From Candidatus Blautia intestinavium (GTDB taxonomy: Bacteria; Bacillota; Clostridia; Lachnospirales; Lachnospiraceae): a stretch of DNA of 64,000 nucleotides. Shown here piece by piece: positions 2,563 to 50,896 of this stretch. Position numbers and translations under genes: made by a program. How positions within the stretch are numbered: the first letter of the stretch is position 1; each line of letters starts with the position of its first letter. The notes under the pieces were generated by a model. That model did not search any database and was not told where the DNA came from. It saw only the letters and a program-made list of their open reading frames with translations. The stretch covers positions 1 to 64,000 of the forward strand of contig DXGV01000026.1 of the NCBI GenBank assembly GCA_019113745.1. The letters are read 5' to 3'.

Positions 2563-4513
2563 ATATTCGGATCCTCCCATCATCTGATTGATATACAAGA
2601 GGATAAAGCTCACGGATCGTATCCTCCCTGCAGAGCTCGCCCTCAAACTCCATTCCTTCTTCGTAAAGAATATAGGTAATCTTTTCCTCTTTTACAAGTT
2701 TCCGTACTGCTTCCTGGTCTGTTGAGGTATAAATTTCCACTGCCTTCGCCGCCCGCCCGTAAGTATCATATCCTGCCGACCAGGCGTAGTAAGGCCATCC
2801 CAGGTACATCATAACGCCAGCCATCGTCACTTCGTTTATACTGTATTCCGGCGTCAGGATAAGGTCTGTACTGTCCAGATTCTGACAGAGCCATTCTGTC
2901 AGATCGCTGTCCATAGAAACTGTAACCCGGTGTCCCGGTCCGTTATTTCTCAGAATGATCACAAAGTCGTAAATCCCCGTGGCTGTAAGAGCCACTGTCA
3001 AAATAACCGCCAGCACCTTTCCGGGCCTCCGTTTCCGGAATATCCGCACTGCCGCCAGCGCCCAGAACATTGCCAGAAACGCATAGGAGATCATAATATA
3101 TTTATGATTTACCGTAATATCCGGCGTCAGCGACATGCAGAAGGCAAAAACCAGCGGAAAGAGGAAGCTCACAAGCACTGCTCTCTGAACTCTTTTTTTC
3201 AGGAAGAAAAAAAGTACAGCCGCACCGAGAAAAAAAATGCCGCTCATCTGGAACAGATACCATATCACTCCGGCGATGCTTTTATCCTCCGCAAGAAATC
3301 CCCAGTAAAAGGATGTTTCCACAGCGGAGCCTCTGATAAAAATTCTGGACTGAAGTACAGATAACAATACCGCTACGACGGCAGTAAAAAGATAGTCCAG
3401 CTTTCCGTCTGAGAAAACCGCATAGCCCATCAGAATCAGAAGGCCGCCGATCACTGCCGCTCCGTTCCAGAAAGTGGTAAGGCCAAGAAGCAGACCGGCC
3501 GCCAGAGCTCCCTCCAGATTGCGGGAACGCCATGCCGCCGCTGTAAAAAAGCGGTCTTTCAGCCATCGAATTCCTTTCTCTTCATGCCCGGCTCCAGCCT
3601 CCACCCATTCCAGATAAAACCATAAAGCCATGGCGACGATCAGAAGCCCGAATGCCAGATGTCTCTGATTCAGATAAACATTAAAATTCCACAGCCCCCA
3701 GTCTTCGTTAGGCGTATATCCGATAAACGACGTATTTCCGGCAAGCGTCAAAAGGAGATCTCCTGCCTTGAGATGTTCCCACAGAAAGCGGAAAAACGTC
3801 AGAGAACTTCTGAAAAAGAAAAATATGACTGTCAGAGCTCCTGCTTTTCTGCTTCCGGTGATCCTTCCGGCCAGACAATATAAAAGCATCAGGAACCCAA
3901 GCAGAGCGAAAACGCTCATCATATTATATGCCACATCCAGCCGGAGCCCCAGATATTCCAGATTTCCTATAAGGAACTGGAACATAAAATGATATTTTAC
4001 ATCTTCCCCGCCAAAATGGGGATACTGCGTGGGAAAATTGTTTCCTCTTGAAAAGGAACGCATCATAGCTGTATGCGGAGCATAATCTCCGTATACCGTA
4101 AATCCGGAATACAGCGTACCGTCCTTAATATAAAACACGTAAAACATAATCCAGGAAAGAAGAACAAAAAGAATAAAAAAGAACAGCGCTTCTCCCGGAA
4201 ATTTTCTTTTTTCTCCCTGGACCCAGGTTCCGGAAAACAGCCCTTTACTGCCTTTCCTGATCCTTCTCCAGTAAATGACAGCCAGAAAAATAAACGCTGC
4301 GGCCAGCACGATAAGGTTTGCCCAGAACAGCGGTTCCTCCTGACCCAAACATACGCTGACCAGAAAAGCCGCCATATAGGTTGTCCAGCCCATCGCCAGC
4401 GTCCCCACACCAAATGATGCTGGCAAAAGAAGCCAAAGACGGGATTGCCCCGTCTTTGGCAGAAATTCTTTTCCCACTAAAAATATAAAAATCACATATA
4501 TTATTCCCAGCAT
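2552..4513 (-). CDS. second DUF2298-like/GT-C membrane protein, paralogue of its neighbour
   Basis: A 653-residue multi-spanning membrane protein beginning with a hydrophobic helix. It shares a first-loop pattern with the downstream gene (GDYAPHTAMMRS here, MDYGFMEAMMRS there), which suggests tandem duplication of an envelope glycosyltransferase-like protein. A second shared feature is a short soluble C-terminal domain ending in a tyrosine-rich strand (here ITYILYEEGMEF). No sugar donor or acceptor can be named. The two genes form one unit, with a candidate promoter at 4566-4593 and no other glycan gene beside them inside the window. Confidence 0.65.
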   Translation of the reverse strand: MLGIIYVIFIFLVGKEFLPKTGQSRLWLLLPASFGVGTLAMGWTTYMAAFLVSVCLGQEEPLFWANLIVLAAAFIFLAVIYWRRIRKGSKGLFSGTWVQGEKRKFPGEALFFFILFVLLSWIMFYVFYIKDGTLYSGFTVYGDYAPHTAMMRSFSRGNNFPTQYPHFGGEDVKYHFMFQFLIGNLEYLGLRLDVAYNMMSVFALLGFLMLLYCLAGRITGSRKAGALTVIFFFFRSSLTFFRFLWEHLKAGDLLLTLAGNTSFIGYTPNEDWGLWNFNVYLNQRHLAFGLLIVAMALWFYLEWVEAGAGHEEKGIRWLKDRFFTAAAWRSRNLEGALAAGLLLGLTTFWNGAAVIGGLLILMGYAVFSDGKLDYLFTAVVAVLLSVLQSRIFIRGSAVETSFYWGFLAEDKSIAGVIWYLFQMSGIFFLGAAVLFFFLKKRVQRAVLVSFLFPLVFAFCMSLTPDITVNHKYIMISYAFLAMFWALAAVRIFRKRRPGKVLAVILTVALTATGIYDFVIILRNNGPGHRVTVSMDSDLTEWLCQNLDSTDLILTPEYSINEVTMAGVMMYLGWPYYAWSAGYDTYGRAAKAVEIYTSTDQEAVRKLVKEEKITYILYEEGMEFEGELCREDTIRELYPLVYQSDDGRIRIYET

Positions 4514-29502: not shown

Positions 29503-29792
29503 GTACTGTTTCCTCCATTTTTCATTTTCTGAAAGCGTCGCATCGTACACCACTTGCGGTACGCAAGGTGAAATGGGGTGCATCTTCTGTTCCGCTCCCG
29601 TATTCTGTTCCTAATTGGGGTGCCTCGGTAAAACACCCAGCCGTCCCTGGCGTGAGACAGCCTTTCCGAAATTGCAGCCATACTGCCGCTGTTGCCTCTC
29701 GGTATTAGGCAATACATGCTTTCATAAGATTACTAAACAGTCCGAACAACCCCTCCGGGTGTATCAGACTACAGCCGCACGTTTCACAAACA
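29503..29792 (-). other. long noncoding gap between rpmJ and rpsM, possible leader
   Basis: No convincing gene. On the transcribed strand it can form hairpins, notably CACCTTGCG/CGCAAGTGGTG-type pairing at 29551-29570, 50 bp before rpsM, and GGGTG/CACCC at 29617-29638. The position fits an autoregulatory site for the alpha operon, but I do not recognise a known motif. Confidence 0.35.
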
Positions 29793-34052: not shown

Positions 34053-34110
34053 TAGCAATCAGATCACAGAGGAGCACCTGTTGATGCATCCTGCATTATA
34101 ATCTCACTGT

Positions 34111-34218
34111 ATCTTCTTTCATCCAGACTGTACTGTTGGTTTTGGAATTTCACCAAATCATGCGAATACCGCTCGCGGACTATACCGCCAATCGGGAATT
34201 TCACCCTGCCCCGAAGAC
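34111..34218 (-). promoter_or_regulatory. FMN riboswitch (RFN element)
   Basis: On the minus strand the conserved blocks are in order: TCTTCGGGGCAGGGTGAAAT, TCCCGATTGGCGGTA, AGTCCGCGAGCG, GATTTGGTGAAATTCC, AAAACC, and AGTCTGGATGAAAGAAGA at the end. The pairing of the opening and closing strands (TCTTC with GAAGA) closes the six-stem aptamer. It lies between the promoter at 34242-34270 and the terminator at 34018-34052. Confidence 0.97.
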
Positions 34219-34241
34219 ACTTCTGTTTAGTTGTTAAAAAC

Positions 34242-44374: not shown

Positions 44375-44914
44375 TTATTTCTTACCGGTCTTGCCGACTT
44401 TACGTCTGATGACTTCATCAACATATTTGATACCTTTGCCCTTATATGGCTCCGGTCTTCTCTTGTCTCTGATCTCAGCGGCATACTGGCCGACTTTTTC
44501 TTTACTGATACCGGAAACAATGATCTTGTTTCCATCGACTTTGGATTCCAGACCTTCCGGATCCTCCATCTCTACGGGGTGAGAATATCCCAGAGAAAGC
44601 ACGAGCTTTTTGCCCTGTTTCTGAGCTCTATAACCTACACCGTTTACTTCCAGCTCTTTAGTGTAGCCTTCGCTGACACCAACCACCATATTGTGGATAA
44701 GGCTTCTTGTTAAACCGTGCAAAGATTTCATTTTCTTCAGGTCATTTGGTCTTGAAACAACCACATGGCCGTCTTCTACTTTAATTTCCATTTCTGTAGG
44801 AAGCGCTCTTTCAAGTGTTCCCTTCGGACCTTTTACAGTTACCACATTTCCTGCAGCTACATTTACTTCAACGCCTGCTGGAATGGCTACCGGAAGTCTT
44901 CCGATTCGTGACAT
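44375..44914 (-). CDS. rplF: 50S ribosomal protein L6
   Basis: 179 residues with two related beta-alpha domains and the C-terminal [19 protein letters not shown] signature. Near 23S helix 97. It is preceded in the transcript by a 198-bp gap that carries one of the two 114-nt structured repeats. Confidence 0.98.
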
Positions 44915-44990
44915 AATATTGTCCTCCTTACTTAGATTGTCGGAGAAAGCGTAACGCCTTCTCTGTTTTCAGTTTATTTATATATATTAC

Positions 44991-45104
44991 AAGGAAGTTC
45001 CGTTCACTAAATTCAGCCTTCGCTTACGCCCGGCTTCATTAAGTTCCTCGGAACGATCTTCGTACTAAATTCATGCTGCGCCTGACGGCTTGCATTCATT
45101 AAGT
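44991..45104. repeat. 114-nt structured element, copy A (rpsH-rplF gap)
   Basis: Aligns without gaps to 50481-50594, 91 of 114 positions equal by hand count. Each copy has two hairpins that begin ACTAAATTC and end with ATTAAGT. In copy A the stems are AGCC/GGCT and ATGC/GCAT with an outer GTTCCG/CGGAAC; in copy B the same positions are GTCC/GGAC, GTGC/GCAC and GTTCGA/TCGAAC. The pairing is thus kept while the bases change. It begins 8 bp after the rpsH stop. A smaller palindrome GAGAAAGCG/CGCCTTCTC follows at 44944-44964. Confidence 0.85.
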
Positions 45105-45112
45105 ATTCTGGA

Positions 45113-45514
45113 TCACCATACAAATGCCAGAACTTCTCCGCCTACATGAAGCTTACGTGCTTCTTTATCAGTAATAACGCCTTTGTTTGTAGAAATAATA
45201 GCGATTCCAAGACCGCCAAGTACTCTTGGCAGTTCGTCCTTGCCTGCGTAGATACGAAGACCCGGTTTTGAAATTCTTTTCAGTCCAGTGATGATCTTAT
45301 CGTTTTTGGTCTCACCGTATTTCAGAGTGATGTGGATGTTTTTGATTGCTCCATCCTCTACTAAATCATACTTTGCAATATATCCTTCGTCAACCAGGAT
45401 ATTAGCGATAGCAATTTTCATTTTGGACGCCGGAACATCTACAGTGTCGTGTTTTGCAGTGTTCGCGTTGCGGATTCTTGTAAGCATATCTGCGATCGGA
45501 TCGCTCATTGTCAT
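45113..45514 (-). CDS. rpsH: 30S ribosomal protein S8
   Basis: 133 residues: [20 protein letters not shown] start and [20 protein letters not shown] near the end. It binds helix 21 of 16S rRNA and in enteric bacteria represses the spc operon. GAGGAGGAAACTAAC precedes the ATG; a second ATG lies two codons in. Confidence 0.98.
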
Positions 45515-45576
45515 GTTAGTTTCCTCCTCTTATTTTTCAGACTTTACATGATGATAATAATAATGGAAATTTTCGA

Positions 45577-45762
45577 TTACCAGGATGCTTTTTTCACACC
45601 CGGGATCTGTCCTTTGTAAGCCAGTTCACGGAAGCAGATTCTGCAGATTCCGTATTTTCTTAAGTATGCGTGTGGACGGCCACAAATTCTGCAGCGGCTG
45701 TATTCTCTTGTGGAGAATTTCTGTTTGCGCTGCTGTTTGATTTTCATTGCTGTTTTAGCCAT
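45577..45762 (-). CDS. rpsN: 30S ribosomal protein S14, zinc type (Z)
   Basis: 61 residues with the zinc ribbon [10 protein letters not shown] and CRICFREL, the short C+ form of S14 (RpsZ). No zinc-free paralogue is seen in the window. Confidence 0.98.
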
Positions 45763-45776
45763 TAGAATTCTCCCTC

Positions 45777-46316
45777 CTATTTCGCAAACGGCATATTGAA
45801 CTGAGTCAGTAATTCACGTGCTTCTTCATCGGTCTTTGCTGTGGTAACGAAGATAATGTCCATACCTCTTACCTTGTCAACCTTATCATACTCGATTTCC
45901 GGGAAGATGAGCTGCTCTTTGATACCAAGAGCATAATTTCCTCTGCCGTCGAAAGCGTTGGGATTAACGCCGCGGAAGTCGCGTACACGGGGAAGCGCAA
46001 GGTTGATCAGACGGTCAGCAAACTCATACATCTTTTCACCTCTTAAGGTTACTTTGCAGCCAATTGCCATTCCCTCTCTGATCTTGAAGTTTGCAACGGA
46101 TTTTTTCGCCTTTGTGGCAATAGCCTTCTGGCCTGTGATCGTTTCCATATCTGCGATTGCAGAATCAAGAAGCTTCGCATTTTCCTTTGCTTCACCAACA
46201 CCCATGTTTACAACAATTTTTTCGAGTTTTGGCACTTCCATCACATTTTTATATCCAAATTTTTTGATCATGTTGTCCATGATCTCATTTTTGTAAAGAT
46301 CTTTTAATCTACTCAC
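45777..46316 (-). CDS. rplE: 50S ribosomal protein L5
   Basis: 179 residues with the 5S-contact motif [20 protein letters not shown] and the loop [18 protein letters not shown]. 17 bp after rplX. Confidence 0.98.
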
Positions 46317-46333
46317 CTGTCATGCCTCCTCTC

Positions 46334-46648
46334 TTATTTGTCGATTACCGCGCCTGTTGCTTTTGCAACGCGGACCTTTTTGTCTCCATCCATCTTGAAT
46401 CCGACTCTGGTTACTTTTCCGTCTACTACCAGCATCACGTTGGATACATGAAGAGCAGCTTCTTTCTGGGTGATTCCGCCTGCCTGATTTGCCGCGGACG
46501 GTTTATTGTGCTTTGTAACCATGTTTACGTTTTCAACGATCACGGTGTTGTCTTTTACGTTTACGGCAAGAACCTTACCTTCTTTGCCTTTATCTTTACC
46601 GGCGATCACTCTGACGGTATCGCCTTTCTTAATCTTCATAGCTGACAT
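46334..46648 (-). CDS. rplX: 50S ribosomal protein L24
   Basis: 104 residues with a KOW motif near the start ([20 protein letters not shown]), an assembly initiator at the tunnel exit side. ATG at 46648 follows TATAGGAGGGTGCC; an ATG three codons later is the alternative. Confidence 0.97.
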
Positions 46649-46659
46649 CAGGCACCCTC

Positions 46660-47028
46660 CTATAATACTTCCGGAGCTAAGGAAACGATCTTCATAAACT
46701 TCTTCTCACGAAGTTCTCTGGCAACTGGCCCGAAAATACGTGTTCCTCTCGGAGTTAAGTCATCTTTAATGATTACGGCTGCATTTTCATCGAAGCGGAT
46801 GTAAGATCCGTCTTTACGACGAGCGCCTTTTTTTGTACGGACAACAACGGCCTTTACTACGTCGCCTTTTTTTACAACGCCGCCTGGTGTTGCATCTTTG
46901 ACAGTAGCAACGATCGTGTCGCCGATATTCGCATATCTTCTTGTAGAACCGCCCATAACACGAATACAAAGGATTTCTTTTGCACCAGTGTTGTCGGCAA
47001 CTTTTAATCTACTTTCCTGCTGAATCAT
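46660..47028 (-). CDS. rplN: 50S ribosomal protein L14
   Basis: 122 residues: [20 protein letters not shown], then [20 protein letters not shown] and [20 protein letters not shown]. It forms inter-subunit bridge B8 with 16S rRNA. Confidence 0.98.
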
Positions 47029-47041
47029 ACTGGTTTCCTCC

Positions 47042-47296
47042 TTATTTCACTTTCTCTACGATCTCAACCAGTCTCCATCTCTTATCCTTGGACAGCGGTC
47101 TGGTTTCCATAACCTTTACGGTATCGCCGATATTGCACTCATTATTCTCGTCATGTGCTTTGAGTTTATATGTTCTCTTTACGATTTTTTTGTAAAGAGG
47201 ATGTTTTACATGGTCTTCAATAGCAACAACGATGGTTTTGTCCATCTTATCGCTGACAACCTTACCCACGCGGGTTTTTCTCAGATTTCTTTCCAC
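47042..47296 (-). CDS. rpsQ: 30S ribosomal protein S17
   Basis: 84 residues, OB fold: [20 protein letters not shown], then [20 protein letters not shown]. 13 bp before rplN in the transcript. Confidence 0.98.
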
Positions 47297-47317
47297 GATT
47301 ATGTCCTCCTATATTCA

Positions 47318-47527
47318 CTATTTTGCAGCGTTTGCCTGCTCAGTGATTACTGTCTGGATTCTGGCAATATTTCTGCGAACCTCTTTGATTCTGCTGGTAT
47401 TGTCTAATTGATTGGTTGCATTCTGAAATCTCAGATTGAAAAGTTCTTTCTTAGCAGCTACTAATTCTTCGTTTAATTCTGCAGCTGATTTTGCCTTTAA
47501 ATCTTCTACGAATTTATTAATTTTCAC
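47318..47527 (-). CDS. rpmC: 50S ribosomal protein L29 (GTG start)
   Basis: 69 residues from a GTG at 47527, which gives the usual [14 protein letters not shown] start and has AAGGCGGTGATAACA ahead; a GTG three codons earlier (47536) is less likely. It is two antiparallel helices with the [15 protein letters not shown] signature. It overlaps the rplP end by 11 nt. Confidence 0.95.
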
Positions 47528-47954
47528 TGTTATCACCGCCTTCTAAGTCTGCACGAGAAACGATTTTGCATTTACATGGTAACTTGTGCATTGCAAGACG
47601 TAATGCCTCGCGGGCTACCTCTTCGGAAACGCCTGCAATTTCGAACATTACACGTCCTGGCTTAACAACTGCTACCCAGTATTCCAGGGAACCTTTACCG
47701 GAACCCATACGTGTTTCTGCTGGTTTCGCTGTTACTGGTTTATCCGGGAAGATCTTGATCCAAACCTGTCCGCCACGCTTGATGTAACGTGTCATGGCAA
47801 TACGGGCTGCTTCAATCTGATTGGATCTGATCCAGCATGGTTCAGTGGCAACAAGGCCGAATTCGCCGTAATTGATTTTATTGCCTCTCAGGGCTTTACC
47901 TCTCATGGAGCCACGGAATTGTTTACGACGTTTTACTCTTTTTGGCATTAACAT
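47517..47954 (-). CDS. rplP: 50S ribosomal protein L16
   Basis: 145 residues: [20 protein letters not shown], then [20 protein letters not shown] and [20 protein letters not shown]. It lies at the A-site tRNA elbow. The start shares one base with the rpsC stop. Confidence 0.98.
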
Positions 47955-48610
47955 TATTTATCGCTCCCTTCCTTAGTTCCTTTTGTGGGAAGTACCTCAC
48001 CATTATAAACCCAGGCTTTTACGCCGACTTTGCCGTAAGTTGTGTCTGCTTCTGCAAAACCGTAATCGATATCTGCACGAAGTGTCTGAAGCGGAATAGT
48101 TCCCTCGCTGTAGAACTCTGTACGTGCCATATCTGCGCCGCCAAGACGTCCGGATACAGCAGTCTTGATTCCTTTAGCGCCGGCCTTCATTGTTCTCTGC
48201 ATTGTGGATTTCATTGCACGTCTGAAAGAGATACGGTTCTCAAGCTGAAGAGCGATGTTCTCTGCTACAAGCTGAGCGTCTCTGTCCGGTCTTTTTACTT
48301 CCTTGATATCAACGATCAGTTTCTTGTCTGTGTATTTCTGCAGCTCTGCTTTTACTTTTTCGATCTCAGCGCCGCCCTTACCGATAACGATACCAGGCTT
48401 TGCAGTATAGATGATAATCTTTACTCTGTCAGATGCTCTCTCAATCTCAATCTTGGAAACGCCTGCGCTGTAAAGTTTTTTCTTTAAAAATGTTCTGATA
48501 TTGTAGTCTTCAACCAGGTAATCTGCAAAATCTGCTTCTGCATACCATCTGGAATCCCAATCCTTAATAATACCCACTCTAAGGCCATGTGGATTAACTT
48601 TCTGTCCCAT
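47954..48610 (-). CDS. rpsC: 30S ribosomal protein S3
   Basis: 218 residues with the KH domain ([20 protein letters not shown]) and the C-terminal S3 domain ([20 protein letters not shown]). It begins [20 protein letters not shown]. Confidence 0.98.
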
Positions 48611-48621
48611 GCTTTTCCTCC

Positions 48622-49011
48622 TTATCTTTCATCCAGCACGATGGTGATATGGCTTGTTCTCTTCTCAATTCTGTAAGCACGGCCCTGTGCTCTCGGCTGA
48701 ATACGCTTCATTGTAGGTCCCTTGTTTGCATAGCACTCTGCAATATAGAGGTTATCTGCGCTCATTCCGTTGTTGTTTTCAGCGTTTGCGATTGCTGATT
48801 CAAGCAGCTTTTTCAGAACGCTGGAAGCATATCTCGGATTATATGTCAGGATACCAAGCGCTGTCTGCACGTCCTTGCCGCGGATCACGTCTAATACATA
48901 GCAGGCTTTCTGAACAGAAATTCTTGCATAAGATAATTTTGCAGACGGTCTTGTCTCTTTATTATTCTCATTTCTGGCTCTCTTAATCTGGCTTCTATGT
49001 CCCTTTGCCAT
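48622..49011 (-). CDS. rplV: 50S ribosomal protein L22
   Basis: 129 residues; the hairpin that lines the exit tunnel ends in [20 protein letters not shown]. The N-terminus is unusually long (about 20 basic and polar residues before [16 protein letters not shown]). A 98-bp gap to rpsS holds a TCTCCGGAA/TTCCGGAGA hairpin at 49063-49090. Confidence 0.97.
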
Positions 49012-49062
49012 TTTAAAGTGCCTCCTTTCTTTTCATTCGATATCTCATGGAAACCGTCCTGA

Positions 49063-49090
49063 TCTCCGGAATTTCCAAACTTTCCGGAGA
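49063..49090. other. hairpin in the rpsS-rplV gap
   Basis: A 9-bp perfect stem TCTCCGGAA (49063-49071) with TTCCGGAGA (49082-49090) around a 10-base loop, with no U-tract. It may stabilise or pause the ribosomal mRNA. Confidence 0.5.
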
Positions 49091-49109
49091 ACCAGGCGGA
49101 TATTTTCAC

Positions 49110-49391
49110 TTAGCGGACGCCGGATTTCTTCTCGTCTTTGCCGTGTCCTCTGTAGGTTCTTGTTGCAACAAACTCTCCCAGTTTATGGCCGACCATATCT
49201 TCAGTGATATATACCGGCACATGCTTTCTTCCGTCATGAACAGCGATTGTGTGTCCTACGAAAGACGGGAAAATTGTGGAGCGGCGTGACCATGTTTTGA
49301 TCACAGCTTTGTCGTTTGCAGCATTCAGAGCGTCAACCTTTTTCAGCAGGCTTGCGTCTGCAAAAGGTCCTTTTTTCAATGAACGAGACAT
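49110..49391 (-). CDS. rpsS: 30S ribosomal protein S19
   Basis: 93 residues: [20 protein letters not shown], then [20 protein letters not shown] and [19 protein letters not shown]. Head of the small subunit. 15 bp behind rplB. Confidence 0.98.
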
Positions 49392-49406
49392 TCTTTACCC
49401 TCCTTA

Positions 49407-50252
49407 TTATTTCGATAAAGCTCTTCCATCGCGTCTTCTTACGATGAGCTTGTTGGACTGTTTGTTCTTCTTTCTTGTCTTCAGACCAAGTGCAGGCTTG
49501 CCCCATGGTGTACACGGACCAGGACGTCCGATACCGGTCTTGCCTTCACCACCGCCGTGCGGATGGTCGTTGGGGTTCATAACAGAACCGCGGACAGTAG
49601 GTCTGATTCCCATGTGACGCTTACGTCCAGCTTTACCGATGTTGATAAGGTTGTGATCTCCGTTTCCTACGATACCGATGGAAGCGCGGCAGGTCATAGG
49701 AACCATTCTCATTTCACCGGATGGTAATCTTAATGTCGCATATTTTCCTTCTTTTGCCATTAACTGAGCGCCATTTCCGGCGGAACGAACCATCTGACCG
49801 CCTTTTCCGGCATGAAGCTCAATGTTGTGGATCATAGTACCAACCGGAATCATTTCCAGCGGCAGGCAGTTGCCTACGCGGATTTCAGCTTCCGGTCCGT
49901 TCATTACCTTCTGGCCGACTTTCAGGCCTTCCGGAGCAAGAATATATGCTTTCTCGCCGTCTGCGTAGCAGATCAGAGCGATGTTTGCTGTTCTGTTCGG
50001 ATCGTACTCGATTGTTTTTACAGTTGCCGGAATTCCATCTTTTCTTCTCTTGAAGTCGATGATTCTGTATTTTCTTCTGCTTCCGCCTCCGCGGTGTCTG
50101 ACAGTGATCTTACCCTGATTGTTACGTCCGGCATTTTTCTTTAAAGACACTACCAGAGATTTCTCCGGCTTGCTGGCAGTAATTTCAGAGAAATCGGAAC
50201 CTGTCATGTGTCTTCTTGACGGTGTATATGGGTTATAGGTTTTGATTCCCAT
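49407..50252 (-). CDS. rplB: 50S ribosomal protein L2
   Basis: 281 residues: [20 protein letters not shown], central OB and SH3 folds, and the C-terminal [18 protein letters not shown] equivalent (here [20 protein letters not shown]), whose His is near the peptidyl-transferase centre. It is preceded by 344 bp of structured noncoding sequence where most bacteria have under 20 bp. Confidence 0.98.
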
Positions 50253-50304
50253 GATGTTTCTCCTTTCGAATTTATTCTCGTGCTTTCGTGCACATATGCG
50301 CGAT

Positions 50305-50472
50305 AAACAGAGCGCCGAGGATTTCGGAACACATCCGTGTTATGCTTGCATATAAACGGATGTGGTTCGAAAGACTCACAAGCGTGTAACGCGACTGAGG
50401 AAGCTTTGCTTCCGAAGTGCGCTCTGTTTCTGTTGAGCGTACCTTTCGTCGCTTCCGAAGTGCGCTCTGTTT
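50305..50472. repeat. 22-bp direct repeats with a shared complementary arm (rplW-rplB gap)
   Basis: A 22-bp sequence occurs at 50408-50429 and again, identical, at 50451-50472. Its GCGCTCTGTTT part is complementary to AAACAGAGCGC at 50305-50315. On the transcript both repeats come first and the single complementary arm last, so only one repeat can pair with it at a time. A 33-nt hairpin (ACATCCG/CGGATGT) lies between, at 50333-50365. Confidence 0.75.
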
Positions 50473-50480
50473 TACAATTA

Positions 50481-50594
50481 AAGGAAGTTCGATTCACTAA
50501 ATTCGTCCATCGCCTCAGCTCGGACTCATTAAGTTCCTTCGAACGACGTTCTCACTAAATTCGTGCTGCGTCTGTCGACTTGCACTTATTAAGT
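50481..50594. repeat. 114-nt structured element, copy B (rplW-rplB gap)
   Basis: Partner of 44991-45104 with the same length and the same two-hairpin design: CACTAAATTCGTCC...GGACTCATTAAGT and CACTAAATTCGTGC...GCACTTATTAAGTG. It begins 2 bp after the rplW stop on the transcribed strand. The differing stem bases compensate each other between the copies. Confidence 0.85.
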
Positions 50595-50596
50595 GA

Positions 50597-50896
50597 TCAC
50601 AGTCCTTCAAAAATCTCGATATCCTTGCTGTCCTCGGTCAGAGCCACGATTGCCTTTTTGGTCTTTGCAGTCTTTCCTACAACATTTCCGCGGCGTCTCT
50701 TCTTGCCGTCCTGGTTCATGGTATTTACACTTTTTACCTTTGTACCCTCAAACATTTTCTCCACAGCTTCTTTGATCTGGGATTTGTTTGCTTCCGGATG
50801 TACCAGGAATGTATATTTCTTTTCTGCCATGATGTTCATGGTTTTTTCTGTAATCACAGGTTTCAGGATTACGTCATAGTACTTAATGTCTGCCAT
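50597..50896 (-). CDS. rplW: 50S ribosomal protein L23
   Basis: 99 residues: [20 protein letters not shown], then [20 protein letters not shown]. It is the docking site for SRP and trigger factor at the tunnel exit. Start and the rplD stop share one base. Confidence 0.98.

Follow-up and report, generated by a model that had tools for sequence, protein, structure and literature searches.

A hairpin-pair repeat at the 3' ends of genes in Candidatus Blautia intestinavium and its relatives

Two gaps of the ribosomal-protein operon in a 64,000-nucleotide (nt) stretch of Candidatus Blautia intestinavium (contig DXGV01000026.1, positions 1 to 64,000 of the forward strand; hereafter the window) contain copies of a 114-nt palindromic element, raising the question of what such an element is and on what it might act. 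Copy 1 (44991..45104, minus strand) lies between rpsH and rplF, and copy 2 (50481..50594, minus strand) between rplW and rplB. The initial annotation had noted the pair, its position and several compensating stem changes, and had left the choice between a selected RNA fold and a palindromic mobile repeat. The observations hold: the copies align without gaps at 91 of 114 identical positions, both begin right behind stop codons, and the named stem changes are present in the sequence. Of the two interpretations, parts of both are supported, the first by strong covariation and the second by gain and loss of the element as a unit at orthologous sites. We find a repeat with several copies per genome, lying in the sense orientation at gene ends, whose stems covary and whose first stem pairs with the end of the host gene. 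We give about an even chance to the view that it is a chromosomal repeat family resembling the repetitive extragenic palindromes (REPs), which places a sense hairpin pair at functional 3' gene ends and acts there on the upstream RNA.

As the operon lies on the minus strand, the element read as RNA runs ACTTAATGA...GAATTTAGT and lies 3' of the rpsH and rplW stops. Its parts follow in the order host stop codon, short internal loop, ACTTAATGA, four variable bases, a stem-loop, four variable bases and GAATTTAGT, and then a longer GTTCNN...NNGAAC stem that encloses a second, similar core. In copy 1 the GA of the rpsH stop codon TGA (45113..45115) opens the 5' outer arm of hairpin 1, GATC (45111-45114); this is followed by the core ACTTAATGA-ATGC...GCAT-GAATTTAGT (45064..45104) and by the 3' outer arm GATCG (45054..45058), which is able to pair with the stop-codon arm TGATC. 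Hairpin 2 (44997..45054) has the outer stem GTTCCG/CGGAAC around the second core at 45006-45044. Copy 2 shows the same plan on the same strand, with the rplW stop codon TGA (50597..50599) 2 nt upstream of the hairpin 1 core (50554..50594) and a hairpin 2 (50487..50544) whose outer stem GTTCGA/TCGAAC encloses the core at 50496-50534. Folding z-scores of the two copies against shuffles are -2.85 and -3.65 in the sense strand, and -1.67 and -2.21 in the antisense strand.

Searches of the own genome used copy 1 as the DNA query and a covariance model, R1, made from three own-genome copies; the loci fetched for further study are the top scorers of R1, and its members therefore match by construction. 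Copy 2 was recovered as a full-length DNA match to copy 1 (E 3.1e-23) as well as by R1, and copy 1 scores E 8.2e-29 with R1 and E 2.0e-27 with a wider model of 28 copies, R2, being itself part of both. Six R1 matches at E <= 10 occur in the genome: in the rpsH-rplF, rplW-rplB, grpE-dnaK and pgk-tpiA gaps, after the GGGtGRT gene (PF14057), where the next gene is convergent, and after the 23S rRNA. All six are in sense to their genes and five stand directly at a gene end, the pgk-tpiA one being a rearranged remnant. The 23S copy was placed by a flank identical to that of locus L179, in which the 23S gene ends 5 nt before the core. Among 61 sampled genomes R1 matched in 25, all within the 37 members of the genus, and in none of the 24 from other families; one congener (G027) has up to 16 matches. 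In what we infer to be the Lachnospiraceae as a whole, R1 matches at E <= 1e-4 were found in 85 of 299 genomes (84 of 298 genera), and an order-wide search with R2 gave matches in 62 of 392 genomes (34 of 173 genera), all 62 listed being in the window's own family; both counts are lower bounds, with up to 12 (R1) and 8 (R2) candidates scored per genome. Named records carrying the hairpin are mostly Lachnospiraceae, and one from Blautia glucerasea (L075) shares its pgk-tpiA element with the congener G065. The covariance-model search advised by the initial annotation thus located further copies in the genome and the family, at sites that are not confined to ribosomal genes.

Outside the genus, 27 of the 29 fetched loci carry the element in sense at protein-gene 3' ends, just past the stop codon; the exceptions are an array (L349) and an ambiguous copy at a contig edge (L363). 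The genes so marked are rpsH (10 sites), the S14 gene preceding rpsH (4), rpsM (3), oadB (2), pgk (2) and, once each, rpsJ, rplK, rpsL, grpE, the GGGtGRT gene and a class II aldolase gene. Most of these names were read by eye from the protein sequences, ten of which were checked with Pfam, and the same reading places further copies at rpmJ, rpmC, tuf, tsf, ssb-rpsR, sufB, transaldolase, thiolase-type and rplW genes. Such genes are for the most part highly expressed in bacteria generally. Stable RNAs are included as well: the element stands, again as read by eye, at the 3' ends of tRNA-Ala, tRNA-Leu and tRNA-Gly, with the core 11-13 nt past the tRNA in L396, L397, L398 and L401, and 5 nt (L179) or 11 nt (L144) past the 23S rRNA.

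An automatic count, from which L363 and the genus matches (these read by eye) were excluded, found that 68 of 98 distinct copies begin within 16 nt of the stop of a frame of at least 60 codons. With frames of at least 100 codons this holds for 53 of the 98, against 119 of 5880 random positions in the same loci (2.0%), and testing for antisense adjacency from the other end of the element gave 3 of 98. In the 53 stop-adjacent copies the core follows the stop by 0-10 nt, mostly by 8-9 or 3. Copies keep close to the stop even where a long gap lies downstream (L354, L358, L370). The initial annotation had held that many copies at random places would make the element a plain repeat; related arrays do occur at assorted places, whereas copies of the two-hairpin form cluster at gene ends.

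The stems were compared across 28 copies aligned with plain MAFFT, made up of 26 of the 29 other-genus loci (all but L349, L363 and L367) and two own copies, with shuffles that keep the relatedness of the sequences in place. Changes on both sides were seen in 21 of 30 pairs. The alignment has 160 double-change cells, against 46.6 when shuffled (0/500), and 92.8% paired cells, against 76.7%; the covariation score is 0.491, compared with 0.187 in shuffles (0/500) and 0.04-0.10 for slid structures. A weaker measure, the number of further pair types, gave 50 against 46.2 and was equalled in 39 of 500 shuffles. A candidate Shine-Dalgarno and AUG start, AGGAACUUAAUGA, in hairpin 2 was dropped, as other hairpin-2 types in the same alignment lack AGGAACUUAAUGA. 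For the G.A loops, K-turn and loop-E folds were weighed by eye, and neither is asserted.

In hairpin 1 the last bases of the host gene, stop codon included, supply one side of the outer stem. Beside TGATC/GATCG at rpsH, the host and arm sequences read TAAGT/ACTTA and TAAAT/ATTTA at pgk, CAAAT/ATTTG at transaldolase, AAAGT/ACTTT at rpsM, CGGGGT/ACCCCG at oadB and TGACCAAA/TTTGGTCG at the 23S rRNA. Arms matched with their own host score above arms exchanged between copies, both in 34 hand-picked genus copies from 14 loci (4.93 vs 3.76) and in 28 mostly other-genus copies, namely 26 from other genera and the own rpsH and grpE copies (4.16 vs 3.09); neither difference was reached in 5000 permutations that keep relatedness in place. 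Pairing is weak at a few sites, with scores of 3 for the 16S-side copies and rpsJ in the genus set and for several copies in the other. The arms also show an excess of G.U over A.C combinations (12 to 0 of 972 cells), as expected for a sense RNA.

Orthologous gaps within the genus show the element to be gained or lost as one unit. Here a site was called filled if the core was found by a regular expression, so that decayed copies count as empty, and the genomes read, out of those with a match, were 31 of 37 for rpsH, 29 of 38 for rplW, 30 of 44 for grpE and 29 of 40 for pgk-tpiA. Median filled and empty gaps measure 206 and 90.5 nt after rpsH, 168.5 and 58.5 nt after grpE, and 160.5 and 44 nt after pgk, and the differences (about 116, 110 and 117 nt) equal one element length; the single filled rplW-rplB gap has 344 nt against 79 nt in empty ones. 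Remnants with internal deletions (G012 at grpE, G032 at pgk) and decayed copies are also present. A comparison of filled and empty sites by eye gave no clear target duplication. In one congener (G009) RpsH is the closest to our own (98%), and its rpsH-rplF site is empty. The stop codon next to the site also differs: at the four genus gene pairs TAA is used at 0 of 18 filled but 77 of 101 empty sites (Fisher p 3.8e-10). Where other-genus filled sites do have TAA, the arm matches the TAA flank.

The gene-end position, the sense bias, the association with the upstream gene whatever follows it and the covarying stems together suggest that the upstream RNA is affected at its 3' end; judged from sequence, the transcribed hairpins would thus act on the RNA that precedes them. 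The hairpins are rich in G.A and lie, in the sense strand, at the stop codon, the 23S end or the tRNA end. A terminating ribosome might open the first stem, and upon its departure the rod could refold and hinder 3'-to-5' decay, or pace termination and re-initiation before the next cistron. The nearest analogue would be the stalling of ribosomes that PMC12306157 reports for Escherichia coli REPs lying within 15 nt of a stop codon. Spread within genomes would supply the copies, and retention would be biased to gene ends.

Several observations weigh against an action on upstream RNA or sit badly with a rigid gene-end rule. Presence in the genus is patchy by the core test (7 of 31 genomes at rpsH-rplF, 4 of 30 at grpE-dnaK, 6 of 29 at pgk-tpiA and 1 of 29 at rplW-rplB), and the element must therefore be dispensable at any one site. 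The avoidance of TAA is not general, as filled genus sites elsewhere use it (L157, the pgk of G028; L175, rpsJ; L170, EF-Tu), as do 17 of the 53 stop-adjacent copies of the automatic count. Certain copies lie away from gene 3' ends (the TATAAT-linked arrays and the forms in G024 and G031), others stand before 16S (L131, L184), and a few are antisense (L137, L156 and L428 at 3703-3810). The inner stems show little of the G.U excess of the arms, with 32 G.U to 25 A.C under an unbiased filter (another filter favours G.U); in the 28-copy alignment the excess is 17 to 7 (p 0.064). Finally, a translation brake would be odd for genes whose products are needed in bulk.

A bolder and, in our judgement, unlikely extension of this reading would see in it a gene-end element of a new class. 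Guided by RNA or by a single strand, such a repeat would arrive at the functional 3' ends of a cell's most abundant RNAs (stop codons, 23S ends and tRNA ends) and become part of them; the host would complete its first stem, so that every copy is fitted to its own host RNA and responds to the terminating ribosome. It would then be a device or a parasite, present throughout the family, that recognises gene ends. Lachnospiraceae are dominant gut bacteria, and a structured element at core-gene ends that matches no Rfam family would change the view of operon ratios and mRNA decay in them. The stop-codon-in-stem design offers a direct, testable link from translation termination to RNA stability, and the many naturally filled and empty sites amount to a ready-made experiment.

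The alternative that fares best, though we hold it to be doubtful, is a selfish mobile repeat, similar to REPs or miniature inverted-repeat transposable elements (MITEs), whose DNA hairpin is recognised by some enzyme and which is tolerated at active gene ends and has no RNA function. Gain and loss as a unit, the internally deleted remnants and the related arrays at assorted places would all follow from it, and so would the likeness of copies within a genome. Among 74 hand-labelled copies mean identity is 0.716 for different sites of one genome (59 pairs), 0.695 for the same site in different genomes (282 pairs) and 0.667 for pairs sharing neither (2360), and each of the first two was reached in 0 of 1000 label permutations. 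Copies thus appear to spread within genomes and also to persist, or re-arrive, at sites, and the likeness of same-site copies counts against a selfish repeat; so do the tightness to the stop before long gaps and the preponderance of sense over antisense adjacency. An agent of mobility was also sought, the search for a parent transposase covering the Y1 family alone. The own genome, which is 82.7% complete, yielded no Y1 transposase (PF01797); the domain is present in 29 of 46 genus genomes, and the core hairpin occurs in 0 of 30 Y1 loci, fetched for part of the Y1 genes listed. Some congeners have longer Y1 genes resembling REP-associated tyrosine transposases (RAYTs) (L333, L334, L335), with no core hairpin nearby. 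A blastn search with copy 1 against plasmids and phages found nothing, and a pattern scan of viral contigs found the inner stem paired at 4/4 positions in 0 of 121 among the matches listed (120 loci), compared with 59 of 135 matches on 114 genome-contig loci.

It is improbable, in our estimate, that the pairing, that with the host end included, arose by template switching during replication, i.e. quasi-palindrome correction, and not by selection. Arms that fit the last bases of the host despite differing codons (GATAAG/ACTTA, GATAAA/ATTTA, GACAAA/ATTTG, AAAAAG/ACTTT) count for it, because a copying process would yield them directly. Such copying would however be expected to remove internal loops, whereas the G.A and U.U loops stay unpaired and are largely conserved beside changing stems; the G.U pairs of the arms, and several outer stems of just 3 base pairs, also argue against it. 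An autoregulatory ribosomal-protein leader or transcription attenuator, the frame in which the initial annotation had viewed the element, gains something from the many sites between ribosomal-protein genes and from the S10-Clostridia leader in the same operon, but is most improbable, since the element also occurs behind pgk, grpE, transaldolase, oxaloacetate decarboxylase beta, GGGtGRT, tRNA and 23S genes, matches no Rfam family and shows no terminator-like site at copy 1. A scan of 44700-45300 for an intrinsic terminator (hairpin and U tract) gave one match, at 45199-45218 inside rpsH.

Variant arrangements were observed alongside the gene-end form. Head-to-tail arrays of the same core hairpin, joined by TATAATGTGAAC, lie upstream of assorted genes (e.g. 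L159, L162, L172, L176, L178). The two antisense copies in rRNA operons lie about 10 nt from 5S (L156, 1462-1573) and some 360 nt past 5S beside an N stretch (L137, 1501-1613). In L396 and L401 the element separates tRNA-Ala from 23S in an rRNA operon that runs 16S-5S-tRNA-Ala-23S.

In the window, all on the minus strand, copy 1 is flanked by rpsH (S8; 45113..45514, PF00410) and rplF (L6; 44375..44914, PF00347), and copy 2 by an open reading frame at 50597..50896, which we take from position and sequence to be rplW (L23), and by rplB (L2; 49407..50252, PF03947/PF00181). The stretches before rplF and rplB had been described as empty, but in both there is a further, genus-conserved hairpin. That before rplF (44915-44973, minus strand) consists of ACTGAAAACAG, a stem and CCGAYAATYTAAGTA with a Shine-Dalgarno sequence; its stem varies and stays complementary, the pattern matches in 29 of 31 genus genomes and nearly so in the remaining two, and an Rfam scan of the window gave no match there. 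Ahead of the rplB Shine-Dalgarno sequence is a small hairpin, TATGTGCACGAAAGCACGA (50278-50296, minus strand), and hairpins of this kind with changed stems were seen by eye in almost every one of the 29 genus gaps read ahead of rplB. The rplW-rplB gap additionally contains a second repeat, CACTTCGGAAGC...GCGCTCTGTTTATCG (about 50299-50475), and related repeats occupy this gap in several members of the genus. Rfam matches elsewhere in the window are an FMN riboswitch (34107-34222), an S4-Clostridia leader (29610-29666) and the S10-Clostridia leader RF03136 (52697-52777, minus strand).

Among described systems the element has several partial counterparts, while itself being apparently undescribed. 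In a scan of the whole window with Rfam 15 it reaches no gathering score, and at E up to 5 the region 44900-45130 has two matches (E 2.7 and 2.9), both far below the cut-off; word searches of the open-licence literature found no description of it. The MITE-like repeats of Firmicutes, RUP and BOX among them, are palindromic non-coding repeats of about 100 bp in gaps. The present element resembles them in being a palindromic gap repeat of that size; for it, the filled and empty sites yielded no clear target duplication. The S10-Clostridia leader is likewise a structured RNA of the same operon, but the ribosomal-protein leaders (PMC7247131) are 5' leaders of ribosomal-protein genes, whereas our element stands at the 3' ends of unrelated genes. 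The L17 downstream element (RF01708) is a structured RNA 3' of a ribosomal-protein gene for which a role in the 3' untranslated region has been proposed; it belongs, according to PMC2864571, to a single gene in Lactobacillales and Listeria, unlike the Rfam-unmatched element described here.

With REPs and the bacterial interspersed mosaic elements (BIMEs) of E. coli the element shares the form of a palindromic intergenic hairpin repeat in several copies per genome (six here, up to 16 in G027). REPs and BIMEs have a conserved GTAG/GGAG tetranucleotide at the hairpin foot. Those placed within 15 nt of a stop codon are likewise multi-copy hairpins in transcribed gaps right behind stop codons, and an effect on the upstream gene is reported for them (ref. 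17 of PMC12306157). We provisionally set our element apart from them, as no Y1 or RAYT link was found, and as its own design is distinct: it has the stop codon inside its first stem and an arm that matches the host gene, it stands also at 23S and tRNA ends, and it is biased to the sense strand.

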